In this document: in pieces, positions 27,308 through 35,326 of the stretch
How positions within the stretch are numbered: the first letter of the stretch is position 1
How the letters are laid out: every line of letters starts with the position of its first letter
NCBI RefSeq assembly: GCF_036010505.1
Contig: NZ_CP108569.1
Location: forward strand, 1,731,001 to 1,795,000
Reading direction: 5' to 3'
DNA length: 64,000 nt
DNA from: Streptomyces sp. NBC_01197
GTDB taxonomy: Bacteria > Actinomycetota > Actinomycetes > Streptomycetales > Streptomycetaceae
Program-made: the position numbers and the translations under genes
Notes under the pieces: generated by a model
Databases searched by the model: none
Seen by the model: only the letters and a program-made list of their open reading frames with translations
Told to the model about the DNA's origin: nothing

Positions 27308-28254
27308 ATGCGGTATCCGCAAAGGGGCGGGCTGACCGTCAAACGGCAGCAGTTCGCGAGAGTTACGGCTCCAGGCGACCGATTCGGTTTGCCCGAGGCG
27401 AGGGTAGTACAGCGATTGCCAGGGATCTGCGGGCCAGTGTCCGCCCGGTCCAGCAATGGCGTCACGCGTAGGCCGAGGACGGCCCACGGTCCTTGCGATC
27501 GCAGGGGCCGGCCTCACTGCCGAGGCTGAGCGATCGGCAGTTCACGCATCTGGAAGCGGAGCTGGCCAAAGAGTCGGCCGCGCATGCTGGGAGGACCAGC
27601 GTTGGACTCTGGGCCGTGTGAACACGGTGATCGGCCGTCGTTTCCATCTGACCTACACCATCCAGGGTGTGCGCAAGCCGTTGGTACGTAACGGCTGGTC
27701 CTGTCAGGTGCCAGCCCGCAGAGCGATGGAGCGGGACGACGAGGCGGTCGCGGTCTGGAAGGCCGAGGTCTACCCCCAGGTGTGGGTCTGCGTCGGCGGC
27801 CGGGGCCGGGTGACAGTGGCCGGCGTGGTCTGCTTCAAGCCCGGCCACCTATCGCGGTTCTTCTACAGGCTGACGTCTACCGCGCCCGCAAGGGCGAGGC
27901 GAAAGAGCTTCGCCTGGCAGGACTACCGCGACTTCCTCGATGTGACCCACCTGCAGCTCGGCGGGCCGGTGGTGTGGTGCTGGGACAACTTGAACGTCCA
28001 TCTCGCCGACGGCCTGGCCGAGTCCGCCCTCGAGTACTGCGACTGGCTGGAGATCTACCAGTTCCCCTCCTATGCGCCGGACCTCAACCCGCAGGAAGGC
28101 GTCTGGTCACTGGTCAAGCGAGGCCTGGCGAACTTCGCTGACCGCCAACCTCGACCACCTCCTGCGGGTCATGAAGAGAAAGCTCAACAAGATCCAGTAT
28201 CGCCTCCACCGATCGCTGCCGCGCCGAGACCGGACTGATCATCGAACCCGGTGA
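27308..28254 (+). pseudogene. Degenerate IS630 transposase
   Basis: Starts MRYPQRGGLTVKRQQF but loses frame within about 20 codons. It is recognisable again in a second frame (RWTLGRVNTVIGRRFHLTYT at about 27600) and a third frame at the end (LDHLLRVMKRKLNKIQYR). Between VWKAEVYPQ and VWVCVGGRGRV roughly 45 codons are missing, including the first catalytic Asp. The second Asp (WDNLNVH) and the Glu (NPQEGVWS) remain. It cannot encode an active transposase. It belongs to the older element that the intact copy invaded. Confidence 0.85.
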
Positions 28255-28287
28255 TCAACACAGCGGCCATCACACTTTCAGCCTCAG

Positions 28288-28621
28288 CACCTGGAGAGTG
28301 CCTCTCCCCTTGTAGCGGACGGACCCTTGCCAAACCTCATCGTTGCAGCCCAGCTCCACTCCTTACCGGTCTGATCAAGACCCGTACGAGTCCGCTGACG
28401 AAAGCCCTGCCACAGCATTCGGCTGCGGCGACACCGAATCAGCGAAATCCAACTCCTCAATCGGTTCGGTCGCTTGATGCCGCACCTACGAACCGCCTGA
28501 CGTGCGGCGCCGTTGCTCGCTTGACGGGGGCACCCTCAATGGGTTGCATACGTTCTGTGATCGCGCACCGGGCTCTACCTGCCATCAGTCACTTCTCCGC
28601 ACGGGTTCGAGGAGCCGCACC
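28288..28621 (+). promoter_or_regulatory. Intergenic segment with candidate promoter for the monooxygenase
   Basis: 334 bases after the IS remnant with no supported gene. TTGACG at 28521-28526 and TGCATA at 28545-28550, spaced 18 bases, is a candidate sigma-70-type promoter ~72 bases ahead of the monooxygenase GTG. Base composition is lower in GC than the genes to the right, so part may be IS-associated DNA. Confidence 0.4.
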
Positions 28622-30514
28622 GTGGACCCGGTGATCATCGTCGGCGCGGGCCCGGTCGGGCTCGCGCTGGCCCTGGCGCTCGCCGCGCTGGATGTCCCCT
28701 CCGTCGTGCTCGACGAGGGAACCGGCGAGGACGCGCCGCGCCCCGCCCGCACAGTCGTACTGCGCCCGGAGACCGCTGACTTCCTGGGCCGGCTCGGCTG
28801 CACGACAGCCCCGGGTGAGACCGCGCGCTGGGCCGCCTGGCGGTCCGTCAGGCGGAGCCGGCAGATGCAGCGGGTCGTTTTCGACGAGCCCGGCCGGAAC
28901 GCCGCCGGTTCCGTGGGGTACGGGGGCCGGGGCATCGGCGGCGCGATTGGCGGTCAGGGAGCCGGCGGCCCCGGCACGAGCGGCGGGCGGGGTGGGCCGG
29001 TCGACCTTGCGGGCATTTCTTCCCCATCCGGCTCATTCGGTCCGCACGGGTTTCGCGGGTCCGACGAGGCCGATGGGACGGGTGTGGTCAATGGAGCGGG
29101 GGTGGCCGCGGGGCCGGGCGTGGTCAATGGCTCTGACGGGCCGGACGGGCCGGGTCCGGCCGAGGGGTTCGGCGGCCCCGGTCCTGGTGGGCCCTCGCCG
29201 TTCCATCTGCCGCAGCACGCCCTGACCCGGGGCCTGCGGGCCGCGGCGGCGAAGCGGGAACAGGTGGAGCTGGTCACCCGCAGCCGGGTGGACACCATCG
29301 AACAGGACCGCGGCGGCGTCACCGTGCACACGGCAGGCCCGCAGGGCACCTGGTGGCGCGGCAGCCATCTGGTCGGCTGCGACGGAGCCCGGTCCACCGT
29401 CCGCAAACTGCTCGGCATCCGGTTTCCCGGCCGTACGGCGGTGGAACGGCACGCGGTGGCCGCGCTGCGCGCCGAACTGCCCTGGCCCGGCGAGGCGTTG
29501 CTGCACCGGCTGCCGCCCTGGCGGACCGGCGGGGAAGAGGTGACGGCCCGTCCACTGCCGGACGACGTCTGGCGGATCGACTGGCTGCTGCCGCCGCGCG
29601 CCGAACTGGTCACCCCCGAGGCACTGGTGGCGCGGGTCCGGGCCGCCCTGGCGGGCTGGTGCGGCGGCGAGACACCTCCGTACGAACTGATCGACACCGG
29701 CGTCTACACCCTGCACCACCGGCTGGCCAGGCGCTGGCGGGTGGGCCGGGCGTTCCTGGCCGGGGACGCCGCGCATCTGCTGGGCGCACTCGGCACCCAG
29801 GAGCTGGACGAGGGGCTGCGAGACGCCGGCAACCTCGCCTGGAAGCTGGCACAGACCTGGCACCACGGAGCCTCCGAGCTGTTGCTCGACAGCTACCAGG
29901 CGGAACGCCGTACTGCTGTCGCCGCCCGGCTGCGCGCCGCCGACCAGTCGCTGCCGATACTGCGCGGCGGTGGTGGGCTGCGCGCGTATCTGCCCGGCGG
30001 GGCGCGCGGGCACGACGCCCTCCTCGCGGACGGCCATCTGGGCAGCGGCGCGCTGGGCGCACCCCCGGTGTACGCCCACTCCCCCCTGGCGCCGCCACGC
30101 ACACCCTCGCAGACCGCGGTGGGAACCGCTGCCGGCGCTCAGATCGCCGATGTACGGGTCACGGCGCCGGACGGTACGACCGTACGGCTGCGCGAACGGC
30201 TCGGACGCGGGCAGCTGCTGGTCGTCCTGATCGCACCGGGTACGGGGGTGTGGGACCGGCGGCACTGGGTGAAGGCGGGCGTGATGCCGAGGCTGGCCGC
30301 CGCGGTGAGCGCGCTGCCGGTCAAGGGCGAACTCCTGGTGGCCGAGACCTATCCGGGCGCTTCGGCGCACACGGTGCTGCTGGTGCGTCCGGACGGCCAT
30401 CTGGTGGCGGCCTTCAGCGGGGTGCGCCCCGCCGAACTGTACGAAGCGGCCGACGCCGCACGGGGCGGGGCGGCGACGGCGGTCCGTGAGGAGAGCACCG
30501 CGGACGTCAATTGA
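28622..30514 (+). CDS. FAD-dependent monooxygenase with glycine-rich insertion
   Basis: 630 residues, flavoprotein hydroxylase of the PheA/UbiH/TetX type. It has the FAD dinucleotide fold VIIVGAGPVGLALALAL at the N-terminus, the DG motif CDGARSTVRKLLG near 265 and the GD motif FLAGDAAH near 380, where the usual GG-N segment reads LGALGTQELDEGLRDAGNLAWKL. A thioredoxin-like C-terminal domain follows (~510-620). Between about residues 98 and 195 an insertion of Gly/Pro/Ser repeats separates two conserved parts and is not seen in typical members. GTG 28622 has GAGGA seven bases upstream. The frame is open to 28502, but that extension is unlike the family. Substrate unknown. Confidence 0.8.
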   Translation: MDPVIIVGAGPVGLALALALAALDVPSVVLDEGTGEDAPRPARTVVLRPETADFLGRLGCTTAPGETARWAAWRSVRRSRQMQRVVFDEPGRNAAGSVGYGGRGIGGAIGGQGAGGPGTSGGRGGPVDLAGISSPSGSFGPHGFRGSDEADGTGVVNGAGVAAGPGVVNGSDGPDGPGPAEGFGGPGPGGPSPFHLPQHALTRGLRAAAAKREQVELVTRSRVDTIEQDRGGVTVHTAGPQGTWWRGSHLVGCDGARSTVRKLLGIRFPGRTAVERHAVAALRAELPWPGEALLHRLPPWRTGGEEVTARPLPDDVWRIDWLLPPRAELVTPEALVARVRAALAGWCGGETPPYELIDTGVYTLHHRLARRWRVGRAFLAGDAAHLLGALGTQELDEGLRDAGNLAWKLAQTWHHGASELLLDSYQAERRTAVAARLRAADQSLPILRGGGGLRAYLPGGARGHDALLADGHLGSGALGAPPVYAHSPLAPPRTPSQTAVGTAAGAQIADVRVTAPDGTTVRLRERLGRGQLLVVLIAPGTGVWDRRHWVKAGVMPRLAAAVSALPVKGELLVAETYPGASAHTVLLVRPDGHLVAAFSGVRPAELYEAADAARGGAATAVREESTADVN

Positions 30515-30539
30515 CCGTCCTGGACGCACATGGTGTACT
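30511..30539 (+). promoter_or_regulatory. Promoter of the leaderless leader-peptide transcript
   Basis: TTGACC at 30511-30516 and TGTACT at 30534-30539 are separated by 17 bases. A start seven bases downstream of the -10 would fall at about 30546-30547, exactly on the GTG of the leader peptide. Confidence 0.55.
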
Positions 30540-30546
30540 GCGGAGC

Positions 30547-30633
30547 GTGACCGACACCGATGTGCGCCTGTGGCGGAGGGTCCATATGGACCTCGTCCGC
30601 TATGCGGGCTGCATGTGTCGCCCGTCCCGCTGA
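30547..30633 (+). CDS. Cysteine-containing leader peptide (putative cis-regulatory attenuator)
   Basis: 28-codon frame from GTG 30547 to TGA 30631-30633. The core WRRVHMDLVRYAGCMCR fits the actinobacterial putative-leader-peptide pattern RRHVDLxRVASAxCR found ahead of sulfur-metabolism genes. A Cys-Met-Cys lies near the end, where ribosome stalling on low cysteinyl-tRNA could act. The predicted transcript begins at the GTG itself, so translation would be leaderless. It lies 147 bases ahead of the cysteine dioxygenase gene. In mycobacteria, leaderless cysteine-rich peptides of this kind act as cysteine-responsive attenuators (established); the function here is inferred from sequence and context. 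Confidence 0.65.
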   Translation: MTDTDVRLWRRVHMDLVRYAGCMCRPSR

Positions 30634-30666
30634 TTCGCCCTTTCTCTCCGTGCCTGCGCCGCCTGC

Positions 30667-30746
30667 GCTGCTCCGGACTGCCGCGTGCTGTTCCGGACTC
30701 CGGCCTGCTGTTCCGGACTGCCGCGTGCTGTTCCGGGTTGCCGCGC
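30667..30746 (+). repeat. Four 20-bp tandem repeats between leader peptide and cysteine dioxygenase
   Basis: Units start at 30667, 30687, 30707 and 30727, an exact 20-bp period. The consensus is GCTGTTCCGGACTGCCGCGT; units 1 and 3 differ by one base. They end 34 bases before the dioxygenase ATG, inside the untranslated stretch of the proposed attenuator. Confidence 0.85.
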
Positions 30747-30780
30747 CGCACGTTCCCGCGAACCAATCCGGACGGTCATC

Positions 30781-31320
30781 ATGTCTCTCTCCACACCCCT
30801 GCCCGCCCCGGCGCCCGCGCGCTCCGCTGCGCCCGCCACGAGCCGGCTCCTCGACTTCGTACGCCGTACCGCCGCCGACTCCGAACTCATCCGCTCCCTC
30901 CCGCTCGACCCCGAGGGCCGCACCTGGATCCGGCTGGACGGTCCGGGCGGGAGCGAGGCCTGGCTGATCGGCTGGCCGCCCGGCACCGGCACCGGCTGGC
31001 ACGACCACGGCGGCTCCCAGGGCGCGTTCGCCACAGCGGCAGGCCTGCTCACGGAGGACTCGCTTGCCGCGCGGCTGCCCACCGAAGGGTGGAAGACCCT
31101 CGAACTGGCCGACGGGGTCGACCGCACCCGGCAGCTGGCACGGGGCGACGGACGGGCTTTCGGCGCCCACCACGTCCACCAGGTGCTCAATGAGTCGCCC
31201 GCCGAGCACGCGGTCTCGGTGCACGCCTACTACCCGCCGCTGCCGCTGATGCGCCGCTACAGCCGCAGGGGCCCCCTCCTGCGCCTGGAGCAGGTTGAGC
31301 ACCCCGGGGAGTGGGAGTGA
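30781..31320 (+). CDS. Cysteine dioxygenase family protein
   Basis: 179-residue cupin enzyme oxidising cysteine (or a related thiol) to its sulfinate using Fe(II) and O2. Iron ligands are evident: the HxH pair in WHDHGGSQGAF near residue 79 and the third His in AHHVHQVLN near 133. The N-terminal ~20 residues are Ala/Pro-rich. ATG 30781 is the first start after the repeat array; the ribosome site is weak, consistent with regulated translation. It is followed directly by a rhodanese gene whose GTG overlaps this TGA. Together with the leader peptide the set looks like a cysteine-sulfur handling operon. Confidence 0.85.
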   Translation: MSLSTPLPAPAPARSAAPATSRLLDFVRRTAADSELIRSLPLDPEGRTWIRLDGPGGSEAWLIGWPPGTGTGWHDHGGSQGAFATAAGLLTEDSLAARLPTEGWKTLELADGVDRTRQLARGDGRAFGAHHVHQVLNESPAEHAVSVHAYYPPLPLMRRYSRRGPLLRLEQVEHPGEWE

Positions 31321-31832
31321 GCGAGCCGCGCTCCCAACCCGAGCCGGCCCCGGCGTCCGAACCAGTCCCGTCGTCCGAGCCGGTCCTGGTGTCCGAACCG
31401 GTCTCGGCGTCCGAACCACGCACCCTGTCCGAACCACCCCCCATGCCCGAACCACTCTCCGTGGACGAGCTGCTGGAGCGGGTCCGGTCCGAGCTCGACC
31501 GGATCGGGCCCCGGGAGGCTTTCGATGCCGCGGCGCACGGGGCGCTGCTGGTGGACATCCGGTACGCGGAGCTGCGAGAGCGCGACGGCCTGATCCCCGG
31601 GGCGCTGGTCGTCGAACGCAACGAACTGGAATGGCGGCTCGATCCACAGGGCAGCCACCGTGCGCCCGAGGCCACCGGCCATGGTCTGCGGACCGTGGTG
31701 ATCTGTAACGAGGGGTACGCATCGTCCCTCGCCGCGGCGTCCTTGCGACAGCTGGGCCTGCACCGGGCGACCGACCTCATCGGCGGCTTCCAGGCCTGGC
31801 GCGCGGCAGGACTCCCGGTCGCCGGGCCCTGA
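31317..31832 (+). CDS. Rhodanese-like sulfurtransferase with hexapeptide-repeat N-terminus
   Basis: 171 residues. The rhodanese domain occupies ~45-168, with VDIRYAELRERDGLIPGAL and the active-site Cys in VICNEGYASSLAA, then IGGFQAW. It probably moves sulfane sulfur, acting with the upstream cysteine dioxygenase. Residues ~7-48 are a (Ser-Glu-Pro-x-x-x) repeat encoded by an 18-bp tandem array. The GTG at 31317 overlaps the upstream TGA (GTGA); another GTG lies six bases earlier. GGGGAG is the ribosome site. Confidence 0.8.
   Translation: MSEPRSQPEPAPASEPVPSSEPVLVSEPVSASEPRTLSEPPPMPEPLSVDELLERVRSELDRIGPREAFDAAAHGALLVDIRYAELRERDGLIPGALVVERNELEWRLDPQGSHRAPEATGHGLRTVVICNEGYASSLAAASLRQLGLHRATDLIGGFQAWRAAGLPVAGP
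31337..31462 (+). repeat. 18-bp tandem repeat encoding SEPxxx hexapeptides
   Basis: Seven units of 18 bp. Five begin GTCCGA (from 31355); the first and last are diverged. They encode PEPAPA, SEPVPS, SEPVLV, SEPVSA, SEPRTL, SEPPPM and PEPLSV at the start of the rhodanese protein. The in-frame period means copy number can change without a frameshift. Confidence 0.85.
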
Positions 31833-31939
31833 ACGCCCCGGGCGGCGGCGCGAGCCGTCGCCCGGCTACCGACCACACCTACCGACCTGCGGCTACCGAC
31901 CCCAGCTACCCACCGCACGGCTATCCGTCTACCGCACAG

Positions 31940-32620
31940 CTACCCGTCGCCCTGGAACCCCCCGTGTTCCAGGTCCGCCAGGTCCTCGCCCTCCGCCTCC
32001 AGCGCCTGCCGCACTGCCCTCAGGGCCATGCCCTCCGGGTACCCCTTGCGGGCGAGCATGCCCGCAAGACGGCGCAGCCGTTTGTCGCGGTCCAGCCCCC
32101 GTGTCGAGCGGAGCCTGCGGGTAACCAGCTCCCGGGCAGTCTCCTCCTCCTGCTCGGAGTCCAGCTGTCCGACGGCCTCCTCGATGAGCTCGGAGTCCAC
32201 ACCTTTCGTACGGAGCTCCCGCGCGAGCGCCCGTTTGGCGAGCCCCCGTCCATGGTGGCGGGTCTCCACCCAGGCATCCGCGAAAGCCGCGTCGTTGATG
32301 AGTCCGACCTCTTCGAAGCGGGACAGCACCTCCTCGGAGACCTCTTCGGGGATGTCCCGCTTCCGCAGTGCTTCAGCCAGTTGCTTACGGGTGCGTGCGG
32401 TCCCGGTGAGCAGGCGCAGGCAGATGGCCCGCGCCTGCTCCGCCGGATCCTGAGGTTTCCGCGGTCCCTGGTCCTGGGACCGCTTCTGCTGGGACCGCTG
32501 CCGCCGCGGTCCCACTCCTCCGTCCCCCTGGCCGACCTCGCCCCCGGAGACCCCGGAGGCCGTGGAGCCCCCGGAGTCCGTAGCGCCTGTGTCCTCCGGC
32601 CATTCGGTTCTCCGGACCAC
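31940..32620 (-). CDS. recX: RecA regulatory protein RecX
   Basis: 226 residues. RecX binds RecA filaments and limits their growth. The ~60-residue N-terminus is Gly/Ser/Gln-rich and disordered. The three-helix repeats follow from CLRLLTGTARTRKQLAEALRKRDIP, through the LINDAAFADAWVETRHHGRGLAKRALARELR motif typical of the family, and a C-terminal repeat with GYPEGMALRAVRQAL. GTG 32620 begins three bases after the recA stop, so the pair is co-transcribed and probably coupled. Confidence 0.92.
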   Translation of the reverse strand: MVRRTEWPEDTGATDSGGSTASGVSGGEVGQGDGGVGPRRQRSQQKRSQDQGPRKPQDPAEQARAICLRLLTGTARTRKQLAEALRKRDIPEEVSEEVLSRFEEVGLINDAAFADAWVETRHHGRGLAKRALARELRTKGVDSELIEEAVGQLDSEQEEETARELVTRRLRSTRGLDRDKRLRRLAGMLARKGYPEGMALRAVRQALEAEGEDLADLEHGGFQGDG

Positions 32621-32623
32621 GGG

Positions 32624-33757
32624 TCAGCTCTTGGCCGCGGCGGCCTTGGCCGTCTTGGCCTTGCCGGCGGCCGGAGCGGGAACCGTCTTCGCTGCCTCGT
32701 CGGCCACGACGGCGCCTGCGGCGTCCGCGCCCGGCTCGGCTCCGAGTTCGGCCTCTCGCCTGACACCGATGCCCAGCTTCTCCAGGATCTTCTTCTCGAT
32801 CTCATTGGCGAGATCGGGGTTGTCCTTCAGGAAGTTCCGGGCGTTCTCCTTGCCCTGCCCGAGCTGGTCGCCCTCGTACGTGTACCAGGCGCCCGCCTTC
32901 CGTACGAAGCCGTTCTCCACGCCCATGTCGATCAGGCCGCCCTCGCGGCTGATGCCCTGGCCGTAGAGGATGTCGAACTCGGCCTGCTTGAAGGGCGGCG
33001 AGACCTTGTTCTTGACGACCTTCACCCGGGTGCGGTTGCCGACCGCGTCGGTACCGTCCTTCAGGGTCTCGATCCGGCGGATGTCGAGCCGTACGGACGC
33101 GTAGAACTTCAGCGCCCGGCCACCGGTGGTGGTCTCCGGGGAGCCGAACATGACGCCGATCTTCTCGCGGAGCTGGTTGATGAAGATCGCGGTGGTCTTG
33201 GACTGGTTCATCGCGCCGGTGATCTTGCGGAGCGCCTGACTCATCAGCCGGGCCTGCAGACCCACGTGCGAGTCGCCCATCTCACCCTCGATCTCCGCAC
33301 GCGGCACCAGCGCCGCGACGGAGTCGATGACGACCAGGTCGAGCGCGCCGGAGCGGATCAGCATGTCGACGATTTCCAGCGCCTGCTCGCCGTTGTCCGG
33401 CTGGGACAGGATGAGGTTGTCGATGTCGACGCCGAGCTTCCTCGCGTACTCGGGGTCGAGTGCGTGCTCGGCGTCGATGAAGGCCACCTGGCCGCCGAGC
33501 CGCTGCGCGTTCGCCACCGCGTGCAGCGTCAGCGTCGTCTTGCCTGAGGACTCCGGCCCGTACACCTCGACCACCCGGCCGCGCGGCAGGCCGCCGACAC
33601 CGAGCGCGACGTCAAGGGCGGTCGACCCGGTGGGGATGACCTCGATGGGCTCGTTGGGCCGCTCACCCAGGCGCATCACCGCGCCCTTGCCGAATTGCCG
33701 TTCAATCTGGGCGAGAGCGGCGTCCAGCGCCTTCTCGCGGTCGTTGCCTGCTGCCAT
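32624..33757 (-). CDS. recA: Recombinase RecA
   Basis: 377 residues. Strand-exchange recombinase and co-protease of LexA. Walker A is GPESSGKTT, Walker [11 protein letters not shown], with L1/L2 loops near [19 protein letters not shown] and [14 protein letters not shown]. The C-terminal tail is Ala/Lys-rich as in other Streptomyces. ATG 33757 ([17 protein letters not shown]) is the family start; the open frame upstream is not coding. The promoter with an SOS box is ~180 bases upstream. First gene of recA-recX. Confidence 0.98.
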
Positions 33758-33929
33758 GGGTTCCACCCGATTTGCTTGAGTCGATCGCTTCACGTCAATG
33801 ACGCTAACCCCTGCCACTGACAATGGGCTCCGAAGCCCGTCCCACCTGTGGATAACCTGGCGGACAACTCGGTGGACAACGCAGTGGACAACCGGTCGAC
33901 GGTTCGTCCGAGTACCGGGCCAGAACCCC

Positions 33930-33959
33930 ATAAGAACGGCTGTTCGATTTTACTGTCAA
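33930..33959 (-). promoter_or_regulatory. recA promoter with LexA (SOS) box
   Basis: On the minus strand TTGACA (33959-33954) and TCTTAT (33935-33930) are separated by 18 bases. Within the spacer and touching the -10 is GAACAGCCGTTC (33945-33934), the GAAC-N4-GTTC palindrome bound by LexA in Gram-positive bacteria. LexA there would block RNA polymerase directly. Confidence 0.8.
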
Positions 33960-33976
33960 GCGCACCACGCGGATGT

Positions 33977-35326
33977 TCAGCCGTCGGTGTCCTCGGCGCC
34001 GTTCCCCGGTCGCGGGACCCGCCCCTGGAACAGGGAGCCCCTGGGCCGCACAGGCACCGTGGCCGCGTCCCGGCGCCCCGCTGCGTCACGGAGTCCGCGC
34101 CTGCCCTGGACACGCGGATCGTCCGTCACGTCGTACCGCTTCACATAGGCGCCCAGGAACGCCTGGAGGGTCGCCACCGCCGGAATGGCGATCAGCGCAC
34201 CGACCGCCCCCAGCAGCGCGGTACCCACGATGACCGAACCGAAGGCCACCGCGGGGTGGATGTCGACGGCTTTCGCCGTGAGCTTCGGCTGGAGCCCGTA
34301 GTTCTCGAACTGCTGGTAGATCACCACGAAGACCAGCACCCACAGCGCGTACCAGGGGTTCACCGTGAAGGCGAGCAGCATGGGCAGGGCGCCCGCCAGA
34401 TATGTGCCGATGGTCGGGATGAACTGGGAGACGAGTCCGACCCACACGGCGAGCGCGGGGGCGTACGGCACATTCAGCGCGATCAGCAGGATGTAGTGCG
34501 CGACGCCGGAGATCAGCGCCATCACACCGCGCGAGTAGAGGTAACCGCCGGTCTTGTCGACCGCGATCTCCCAGGCCCGCAGCACCTCGGTCTGCTTCGA
34601 CGGCGGCAGTACGGAGCACAGTGCGCGCCGCAGCCGTGGCCCGTCGGCCGCGAAGTAGAAGGCGAACAGGAAGATCGTCAGAAGCCGGAAGAGACCGCCC
34701 AGCACGGTGGTCGACACGTCGAGCACACCGCTCGCGCTGTTCTGGACGTACTTCTGCAGCCAGTCCGAGTGGAGCAGGCTGTCCTGGACCTGTACCCGCG
34801 ACAGCTCGCTGTGGAAGGTGTGGTTGGTCCAGTTGATCAGCAGGTCCAGGTACTTGGGGAACTCCTCGACCATGTCCACGATCTGCCCGGCCAGCATCGA
34901 GCCGAGCAGGAAGACGAAGCCGGCCGCCGCGAGCGCCACCCCGGAGAAGACCAGGAAGGTGGCGAGACCGCGGCGCATTCCGCGCGCCGCCATGCGCCCC
35001 ACCGCCGGCTCGATCGCGAGAGCCAGGAAGAACGCGATGAGGATGTTGGTCAGCAACCCGATGAGCTGGTAGAACGCCCAGCTGCCCAGCTGGAAGCAGG
35101 CGACGAGGGCGAGGGCGAGCACCATGGCCCTGGGCAGCCAGCGTGGCATCGACGCGCGGCCCGGCGCGTCACGCCCGGCGGCGGGAGGGGGCGGCGCGGC
35201 GCCCGGAGTCCGGTCCTCAGTCGTCCCGCCCGCGGTCGTCCGGTCCGCGGCGGTCCGGTCGGTGGTCGTCCGGTCCGCGGCGGTCTCGTCCCGGGTCATC
35301 TGGTCCTCGGCAGTCTCATCGGTCAT
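33977..35326 (-). CDS. AI-2E family transporter (PerM type) with repetitive N-terminus
   Basis: 449-residue polytopic membrane protein, about eight TM helices from residue ~68 (AMVLALALVACFQLGSWAFY). Family motifs include FIPTIGTYLAGALPMLLAF and the C-terminal LGAVGALIAIPAVATLQAFL. Family members export autoinducer-like or lipid-like molecules or ions; the substrate is not predictable. The first ~50 residues are Thr/Asp/Arg-rich imperfect repeats (DRTTTDRTAADRTT) encoded by a ~30-bp duplicated DNA unit near 35230-35290. It lies upstream of recA on the same strand with the recA promoter between them. Confidence 0.85.
   Translation of the reverse strand: MTDETAEDQMTRDETAADRTTTDRTAADRTTAGGTTEDRTPGAAPPPPAAGRDAPGRASMPRWLPRAMVLALALVACFQLGSWAFYQLIGLLTNILIAFFLALAIEPAVGRMAARGMRRGLATFLVFSGVALAAAGFVFLLGSMLAGQIVDMVEEFPKYLDLLINWTNHTFHSELSRVQVQDSLLHSDWLQKYVQNSASGVLDVSTTVLGGLFRLLTIFLFAFYFAADGPRLRRALCSVLPPSKQTEVLRAWEIAVDKTGGYLYSRGVMALISGVAHYILLIALNVPYAPALAVWVGLVSQFIPTIGTYLAGALPMLLAFTVNPWYALWVLVFVVIYQQFENYGLQPKLTAKAVDIHPAVAFGSVIVGTALLGAVGALIAIPAVATLQAFLGAYVKRYDVTDDPRVQGRRGLRDAAGRRDAATVPVRPRGSLFQGRVPRPGNGAEDTDG

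Follow-up and report, generated by a model that had tools for sequence, protein, structure and literature searches.

A conserved cysteine-containing leader ahead of the cysteine dioxygenase gene of Streptomyces: candidate sensor of a translational attenuator

Cysteine-containing leader peptides have so far been discussed for genes of cysteine synthesis and sulfur acquisition, and a locus of Streptomyces sp. NBC_01197 raises the question of what such a leader does ahead of cysteine dioxygenase (CDO), a cysteine-degrading enzyme. The DNA analysed, referred to as the window, is a stretch of 64,000 nucleotides (nt) of the forward strand (GCF_036010505.1, NZ_CP108569.1, 1,731,001-1,795,000), and coordinates are positions within it. 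A short open reading frame (ORF) lies there upstream of the CDO gene and an overlapping rhodanese-domain gene. The interpretation that we favour, with somewhat more confidence than doubt and from sequence comparison and folding models, is that this leader would be the sensor of a translational attenuator, wherein the position of the ribosome gates the CDO ribosome-binding site and slow decoding of cysteine codons turns CDO on. The CDO leader appears to carry a concrete, testable RNA mechanism that the models do not find in two biosynthetic kinds of leader of the same genus, and it lends itself to a precise mutational test of how cysteine status is read by a leaderless ribosome in actinobacteria. 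It also raises the question of why a catabolic enzyme appears to track biosynthetic genes.

Key observations concern the constancy of the leader. A first set was drawn from the best 80 of 211 CDO matches in genome contigs, all Streptomyces by title; three had too little upstream DNA, and the leader peptide lies upstream of CDO in all 77 loci having it, which together with the window make up an alignment of 78 rows. The leader was likewise present in 30/30 loci of a second set, made up of the Streptomyces loci that scored best when the whole class was searched, in which the window copy is included and species may overlap with the first set. CDO itself is not universal in the genus: in the class-wide search three Streptomyces genomes gave nothing at E 1e-10, and for some the match was a distant one only. 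An earlier note on this DNA had proposed a 28-codon GTG frame at 30547-30633, encoding a peptide of the actinobacterial RR...DL...C leader family ahead of cysteine dioxygenase-rhodanese genes. The frame is borne out by the sequence and the ORF list, the gene order by matches to PF05995 and PF00581 downstream of the conserved peptide, and the family by an RRxHxDL...C core and a match to NCBIfam NF042934 (cis_reg_atten, "putative leader peptide") of 38.8 bits (E = 4.6e-10, cut-off 27), in which leader residues 6-24 align to positions 1-19 of the 19-position profile. The match to NCBIfam NF042933 (Ms5788A), at 19.2 bits, falls under the 45-bit cut-off.

With the invariant tryptophan numbered as core position 1, the 78 rows share W, R, R, V, H, D, L, R and Y without exception, and all of these except the single-codon W are encoded by more than one codon, which points to selection on the leader peptide. 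Cysteine occupies position 14 in 77 rows, position 16 in all 78, always as TGT, and position 20 in 66, and a C-x-C arrangement is found in 77. Most relatives end in PSC and thus have a third cysteine codon, whereas the window leader ends in PSR and has two. Codon choice is also restrained: mean codon entropy is 0.45 bits in 15 of the 20 leader columns versus 0.89 bits in 82 invariant CDO columns (Mann-Whitney p = 9e-4, a rough value, since the sequences are related), and the conserved leader codons AGG and CAT account for 4% and 15% of the Arg and His codons in the same CDO genes. Judged by this sequence comparison, the small cysteine-containing leader gene before Streptomyces CDO is real, and it is conserved in the relatives examined.

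The end of the leader is complementary to the ribosome site of CDO, a feature absent from the earlier note. Exactly one GGA[CT]GG occurs 8-14 nt ahead of the in-frame CDO start in all 78 loci, and the commonest form of the site, CAGGACGG, is the reverse complement of CCG TCC TG in leader codons 18-20 (commonly CCG TCC TGC). When an eight-pair helix is drawn between the two segments, 599 of 624 cells (96%) hold standard pairs in register, compared with at most 320 when one side is slid by one to six positions; contiguous pairs number eight in the commonest type and six in the window (CCGTCC:GGACGG). Rows joined from the two segments (77 distinct, from 113 loci) give 86.4% paired cells over nine pairs, and the best slide gives 55.1%. 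In L024, L054 and L084 the leader reads CGC CGT TCT CGC, for the peptide RRSR, and still provides CCGUUCU for AGGACGG, one base off the reading frame (aligned by eye, with the duplex computed for L024). In other genera, L206 and L207, which share the same row, carry a double change from U-A to C-G, L203 has a helix longer by two pairs with matching G-G and C-C, and L208 and L209 have a G-U pair. The sequence of L210 is different but complementary; its leader gives a duplex of -24.9 kcal/mol at its own site, compared with -6.5 to -16.3 at the sites of eight other loci.

The predicted consequence of this pairing was followed by masking a 29-nt ribosome footprint on the folded RNA and computing the cost of opening the AGGA position in the CDO site. 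Averaged over the 78 loci, the opening energy is 9.7 kcal/mol with no ribosome, 8.7 with the first cysteine codon (Cys14) in the A site, 3.4 at UGU16, 2.9 at Cys20 and 2.9 at the stop codon. The CDO site is thus predicted to be shut on naked RNA or with the ribosome at the first cysteine codon, and open with the ribosome at the UGU codon, the last cysteine codon or the stop. The first-cysteine and stop positions differ by more than 1 kcal/mol in 68 of the 78 loci; the window is not among them. A 29-nt mask placed instead in the spacer had a small effect (8.9 versus 9.6 kcal/mol in the 31 loci having room). The profile is flat, at about 4 kcal/mol, in 28 cysO-type and 30 cysI-type leaders of the genus; 28 of the 30 cysO-type loci were kept for folding, L243 being without a regex-detected leader, and the start and ribosome site of the cysI type were assigned by a simple rule. 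Outside Streptomyces, closure at Cys14 followed by later opening is predicted in L203, L206 and L207; in this run the naked and stop values alone were used for L208 and L209, and L201 was left out.

The leader is probably transcribed without a 5' untranslated region (UTR), starting at or beside the GTG. The start codon is ATG or GTG in 78/78 rows, 8 or 9 codons ahead of the invariant W, and in the register that begins at -36 from it TTGAC is found in 56 rows, TGAC in 21 and neither in one; a box so fixed leaves little space for a 5' UTR, which suggests leaderless transcription. Columns -13 to -8, the -10-like box, are partly conserved. The promoter read in the earlier note, TTGACC-17-TGTACT with +1 at the GTG, stands in part: both boxes are present at that spacing and TTGAC/TGAC is conserved in 77 of 78 rows, but a strict promoter scan returned no site, and TGTACT is atypical. 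According to the available text of the S. lividans survey, leaderless -10 boxes there have A at position 2 in 94.5% of cases (PMC8079986), and TGTACT does not.

The mechanism proposed is as follows. Transcription would start at or beside the GTG, and ribosomes would read the leader from the 5' end of the RNA. Base pairing of the last sense codons to the Shine-Dalgarno region of CDO would close this region by default. A ribosome detained with its A site at the UGU cysteine codon, or at a later point, would cover the pairing codons and free the site, allowing translation of CDO and the overlapping rhodanese gene. Because UGU and, in most species, the third cysteine codon would hold the ribosome on the anti-Shine-Dalgarno segment, slow decoding is favoured as the on-signal. 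Most likely, slow cysteine decoding would turn CDO on, in parallel with the genes of cysteine biosynthesis. The leader, its conservation, the complementarity and the position-dependent accessibility are supported by comparison and prediction; the leaderless start, the pausing of ribosomes and the direction of the response are the parts that we infer.

On direction, an occupancy model of all 78 loci (assuming initiations 3 s apart, 0.1 s per codon, termination in 0.5 s and equilibrium folding) predicts that slow decoding at positions 14, 16 and 20 raises CDO initiation in 71 loci, at 14 and 16, as in the window type, in 48, and at 16 alone in 55. Slow decoding at 14 alone raises it in only 9. 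The sign of the response would thus depend on which cysteine codon dominates. For the window profile, the predicted rise with slow 14 and 16 is 0.1 to 0.6 log2 units. The CDO orthologue of S. coelicolor is presumed to be SCO5772, which we take to adjoin recX and recA, as in the window locus. Table 2 of PMC3087709 pairs SCO5772 with a putative cysteine dioxygenase. After 2 h in 0.15 mM H2O2, SCO5772, labelled hypothetical in Table 1 of PMC4991794, rises 8.0-fold in that table, alongside cysI (9.3), cysA (8.3) and cysM (8.5). The suggestion of the earlier note that the logic might be opposite to that of biosynthetic operons is not upheld by this joint rise or by the increase predicted in 71 of 78 loci, but the result for position 14 alone leaves it some probability.

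Several results weigh against the attenuator as proposed. Conservation and complementarity of the pairing are strong, but statistical covariation is weak: a single both-sided change was found on the 77 distinct rows, with 194 of 500 shuffles scoring as high, and covariation is unconvincing as proof of pairing. At codon 18, five of the 78 loci use CCT or CCC, which keeps proline and costs one pair. In a 9 x 9 duplex matrix across genera (with the tail of L209 shortened and L201 left out) the leader's own ribosome site was the best partner for only three of nine leaders, L203, L209 and L210, and the L210 site also scores -9.8 to -23.4 with other leaders. No such pairing is seen in L198-L200, L202 or L191-L193, and L197 and L210 do not show the effect of the mask. 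The accessibility profile depends on the assumed footprint: with the ribosome edge at +17 the first-cysteine state is half open (4.6 kcal/mol), and an edge at +11 leaves the UGU state half closed (5.7). The window copy itself shows low contrast, from 6.8 kcal/mol naked to 3.3-4.7 between first cysteine and stop (4.7 at the first cysteine, 4.5 at UGU, 4.2 at the stop); it has six contiguous pairs, lacks a third cysteine and carries TTCCGGACT-like repeats in its spacer. Furthermore, the RNA-seq values report mRNA, not translation, and the mechanism offers no explanation of why a shortage of cysteine should raise an enzyme that degrades it.

The main rival keeps the same pairing and reverses its logic, such that arrest at the first cysteine codon would leave CDO shut and a run to the stop codon would open it, turning CDO on when cysteine is plentiful. 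This would suit an enzyme that degrades cysteine, and the footprint at the first cysteine is indeed predicted to end just ahead of the pairing segment (8.7 kcal/mol, closed); when decoding is slow there alone, predicted initiation falls or stays as it was in 69 of 78 loci. The extra cysteine is missing from L191-L193 and L210 of sister genera, and in L132 a distance of 7 nt separates the leader stop from the likely CDO start, a spacing suggestive of stop-start coupling. We consider the reversal unlikely. The closure at the first cysteine halves with a footprint 3 nt longer, the UGU codon (78/78) and the last cysteine codon (66/78) act in the opposite sense in the occupancy model, L198-L200 and L202 have the extra cysteine without the pairing, and SCO5772 rises together with the cysteine-biosynthesis genes (PMC4991794). 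A feather-degrading Streptomyces, as reported in the available text of PMC7181669, raises cdo1 50-fold on feather keratin versus LB; this might be taken to favour induction by plentiful cysteine, but the comparison changes many nutrients and fits either direction.

Control might instead be transcriptional: Rho- or pausing-dependent termination could follow the leader, in which case the pairing would be secondary or a matter of chance, or the promoter alone could be in charge. The published peroxide response is one of mRNA level (PMC4991794), the CDO orthologue appears in Table 2 of PMC3087709 as induced by nitrogen starvation in dependence on GlnR, and for the cys leaders of mycobacteria Seliverstov et al. 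suspected Rho, a prediction described as weak in the available text (PMC1262725); the weak covariation would also fit. A pattern scan of 30400-30900 found no intrinsic terminator-like site, a result with no bearing on Rho, and the in-register pairing in 96% of cells, together with the sharp difference between CDO leaders and those of the cysO and cysI types, makes purely transcriptional control seem quite improbable. Very doubtful, finally, is an arrest peptide, in which the WRRVHxDLxRYAGCxC chain would sense free or oxidised cysteine in the exit tunnel, like TnaC, and pause the ribosome over the anti-Shine-Dalgarno codons. The invariance of residues under synonymous codons, their fixed distance to the UGU codon and the similar core in leaders of other genes speak for it, and TnaC provides the precedent of a short arrest peptide of an operon for tryptophan transport and catabolism (PMC10941005), but the C-terminal residues vary, and charging of the tRNA accounts more simply for the cysteine codons.

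Related leaders occur elsewhere in the same genome. NF042934 is matched over its cut-off by the window leader, by one that precedes a nitrite/sulfite reductase (PF01077, PF03460) and by one that precedes a two-stretch rhodanese protein (PF00581). A match below the cut-off lies ahead of a ThiS-family protein (PF02597), after which comes a frame that by eye resembles cysteine synthase. The names cysI-type, sulfurtransferase and cysO-type follow the neighbouring genes; no equivalog cut-off was reached. All 61 sampled Streptomyces genomes have 3 to 16 matches to the leader family at E <= 0.01, and the TGT codon is in the printed rows of 30/30 cysI-type and 28/29 cysO-type leaders, the codon of the remaining one lying outside the printed stretch. 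The CDO leader shares the RRxHxDL/RxVDL...C core of the reductase and sulfurtransferase leaders of its genome; it differs in preceding cysteine dioxygenase, in an extra cysteine two codons before the conserved one, and in an end predicted to pair with the downstream ribosome site, with an effect that the cysO- and cysI-type leaders lack in the folding model.

Mycobacterial polycysteine leaderless ORFs, with Ms5788A and Ms4527A as NCBIfam names, were reportedly described by Canestrari et al. in 2020. Conserved cysteine-rich leaderless ORFs are reported for mycobacteria (PMC4633059), and cysteine biosynthetic genes of M. smegmatis are stated to be regulated by translation attenuation (PMC13236596). 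The CDO leader resembles these ORFs as a short, putatively leaderless, cysteine-containing frame ahead of sulfur genes with its cysteine codons clustered near the end, but lacks a run of adjacent cysteine codons and has a catabolic target; the sulfurtransferase leader of the same genome, L003, passes the Ms5788A cut-off (45.7 versus 45). In ermC-type translational attenuators the position of a ribosome on the leader sets the sequestration of a Shine-Dalgarno sequence, the ribosome being arrested by a drug. The CDO leader is predicted to act likewise, except that cysteine decoding would replace the drug and that the final codons of the leader itself form the anti-Shine-Dalgarno. In the LEU element before leuA of Actinobacteria (Seliverstov et al. 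2005, PMC1262725), codons of the leader ORF also pair with a downstream Shine-Dalgarno box; as described in the available text, its gene is biosynthetic, and it has leucine codons in the pairing stem and a conserved pseudoknot. Like the CDO leader, TnaC of the tna operon is a short leader of a catabolic amino-acid operon, but sensing of a free ligand, hypothetical here, is shown for TnaC (PMC10941005). Among the eight leader peptides given in the available text of the S. lividans survey none lies ahead of CDO, and the metNIQ leader contains cysteine codons (PMC8079986). Among the matches listed (up to 20 per search) in an open-licence library, none described a CDO leader or anti-Shine-Dalgarno pairing for it in Streptomyces. 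New here are CDO as a target across the examined Streptomyces loci, the pairing of the leader end with the CDO site, and the difference from leaders of the cysO and cysI types.

A broader and tentative proposal is that a single cysteine-sensing nascent-peptide module (RxHxDLxR...C, with a fixed UGU) has been plugged into different expression platforms, that before CDO its last codons became an anti-Shine-Dalgarno, and that CDO is induced together with cysteine-making genes upon slow cysteine decoding, for example under peroxide. If this were so, the peroxide response of sulfur genes in S. coelicolor would be largely a leader-peptide response. Many of the genes raised by H2O2 in Table 1 of PMC4991794 have likely counterparts in the window genome that carry cysteine leaders (cysI, cysA, cysM), or are metNIQ, and the response could act largely via leaders.

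A regex detects a related leader within 500 nt in 32 of 40 further same-family loci (39 of other genera, one Streptomyces). Among 40 distant CDO loci, some of them second copies in Streptomyces, two had no CDO match and 5 of the other 38 have a credible leader; in distant families (49 loci, by regex) the credible leaders are L297, L302, L314, L315, L316, L321, L330 and L338, others being uncertain. Some distant-family leader frames extend across the likely CDO start, as the frame of L124 (L321) seems to do, and the stop-start spacing of L132 (the same place as L302) suggests translational coupling. Sister genus g145 has the CDO gene in only one of two genomes. In sister genus g143 (L198-L202) the leader ends TGT ACG GCC GCG CGC TGA, followed in 3/5 loci by CGCGCGCC; its stop codon may lie in a GC-rich hairpin, perhaps another expression platform for the same leader. 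Genus g150 (L217-L225, L227-L229) has a more distant CDO and a conserved leader of another type, LVCRLHVDLRRQAS[SD][IM]CA[CR].

Table 1. Positions of the leader, its candidate control signals and the neighbouring genes
Feature	Coordinates	Strand	Remarks
-35-like box TTGACC	30511..30516	+	Sequence; TTGAC/TGAC at the same place in aligned loci
-10-like box TGTACT	30534..30539	+	17 nt past TTGACC, 7 nt before GTG; imperfect TAnnnT match
Leader ORF	30547..30633	+	28 codons, GTG 30547, TGA 30631-30633; peptide VTDTDVRLWRRVHMDLVRYAGCMCRPSR; NF042934 member
Inverted repeat GGTCC-ATAT-GGACC within leader ORF	30579..30592	+	Sequence; possible small hairpin
First Cys codon TGC, core position 14	30610..30612	+	Cys in 77/78 loci
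Conserved Cys codon TGT, core position 16	30616..30618	+	TGT in 78/78 loci
Candidate anti-Shine-Dalgarno segment CCGTCC	30622..30627	+	Commonest form in relatives CCGTCCTG
CDO ribosome-binding segment GGACGG	30770..30775	+	Commonest form in relatives CAGGACGG
Cysteine dioxygenase (CDO) type I gene	30781..31320	+	PF05995, E 1.3e-44
Rhodanese-domain gene	31311..31832, start 31311 or 31317	+	PF00581, E 3.1e-11; overlaps CDO stop
Related Cys leaders of the same genome	L002 1484-1566, L003, L004		Ahead of nitrite/sulfite reductase, rhodanese-type sulfurtransferase and ThiS-family (cysO-like) gene

The conserved rare codons AGG and CAT lie in the region of the inverted repeat. An Rfam scan of 28000-34000 returned two sub-threshold matches only, which were judged to be chance. 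The spacer between leader and CDO contains, at 30669-30737, imperfect tandem repeats of the GCTGTTCCGGACT-GCCGCGT type (by eye), whose CCGGAC copies look like CCGGACGG of the CDO ribosome site and could make the pairing weaker in the window species. Upstream, an FAD-dependent monooxygenase-like frame (28502-30514, PF01494) has by eye a long stretch rich in Gly that separates the N-terminal part from the matched FAD domain.

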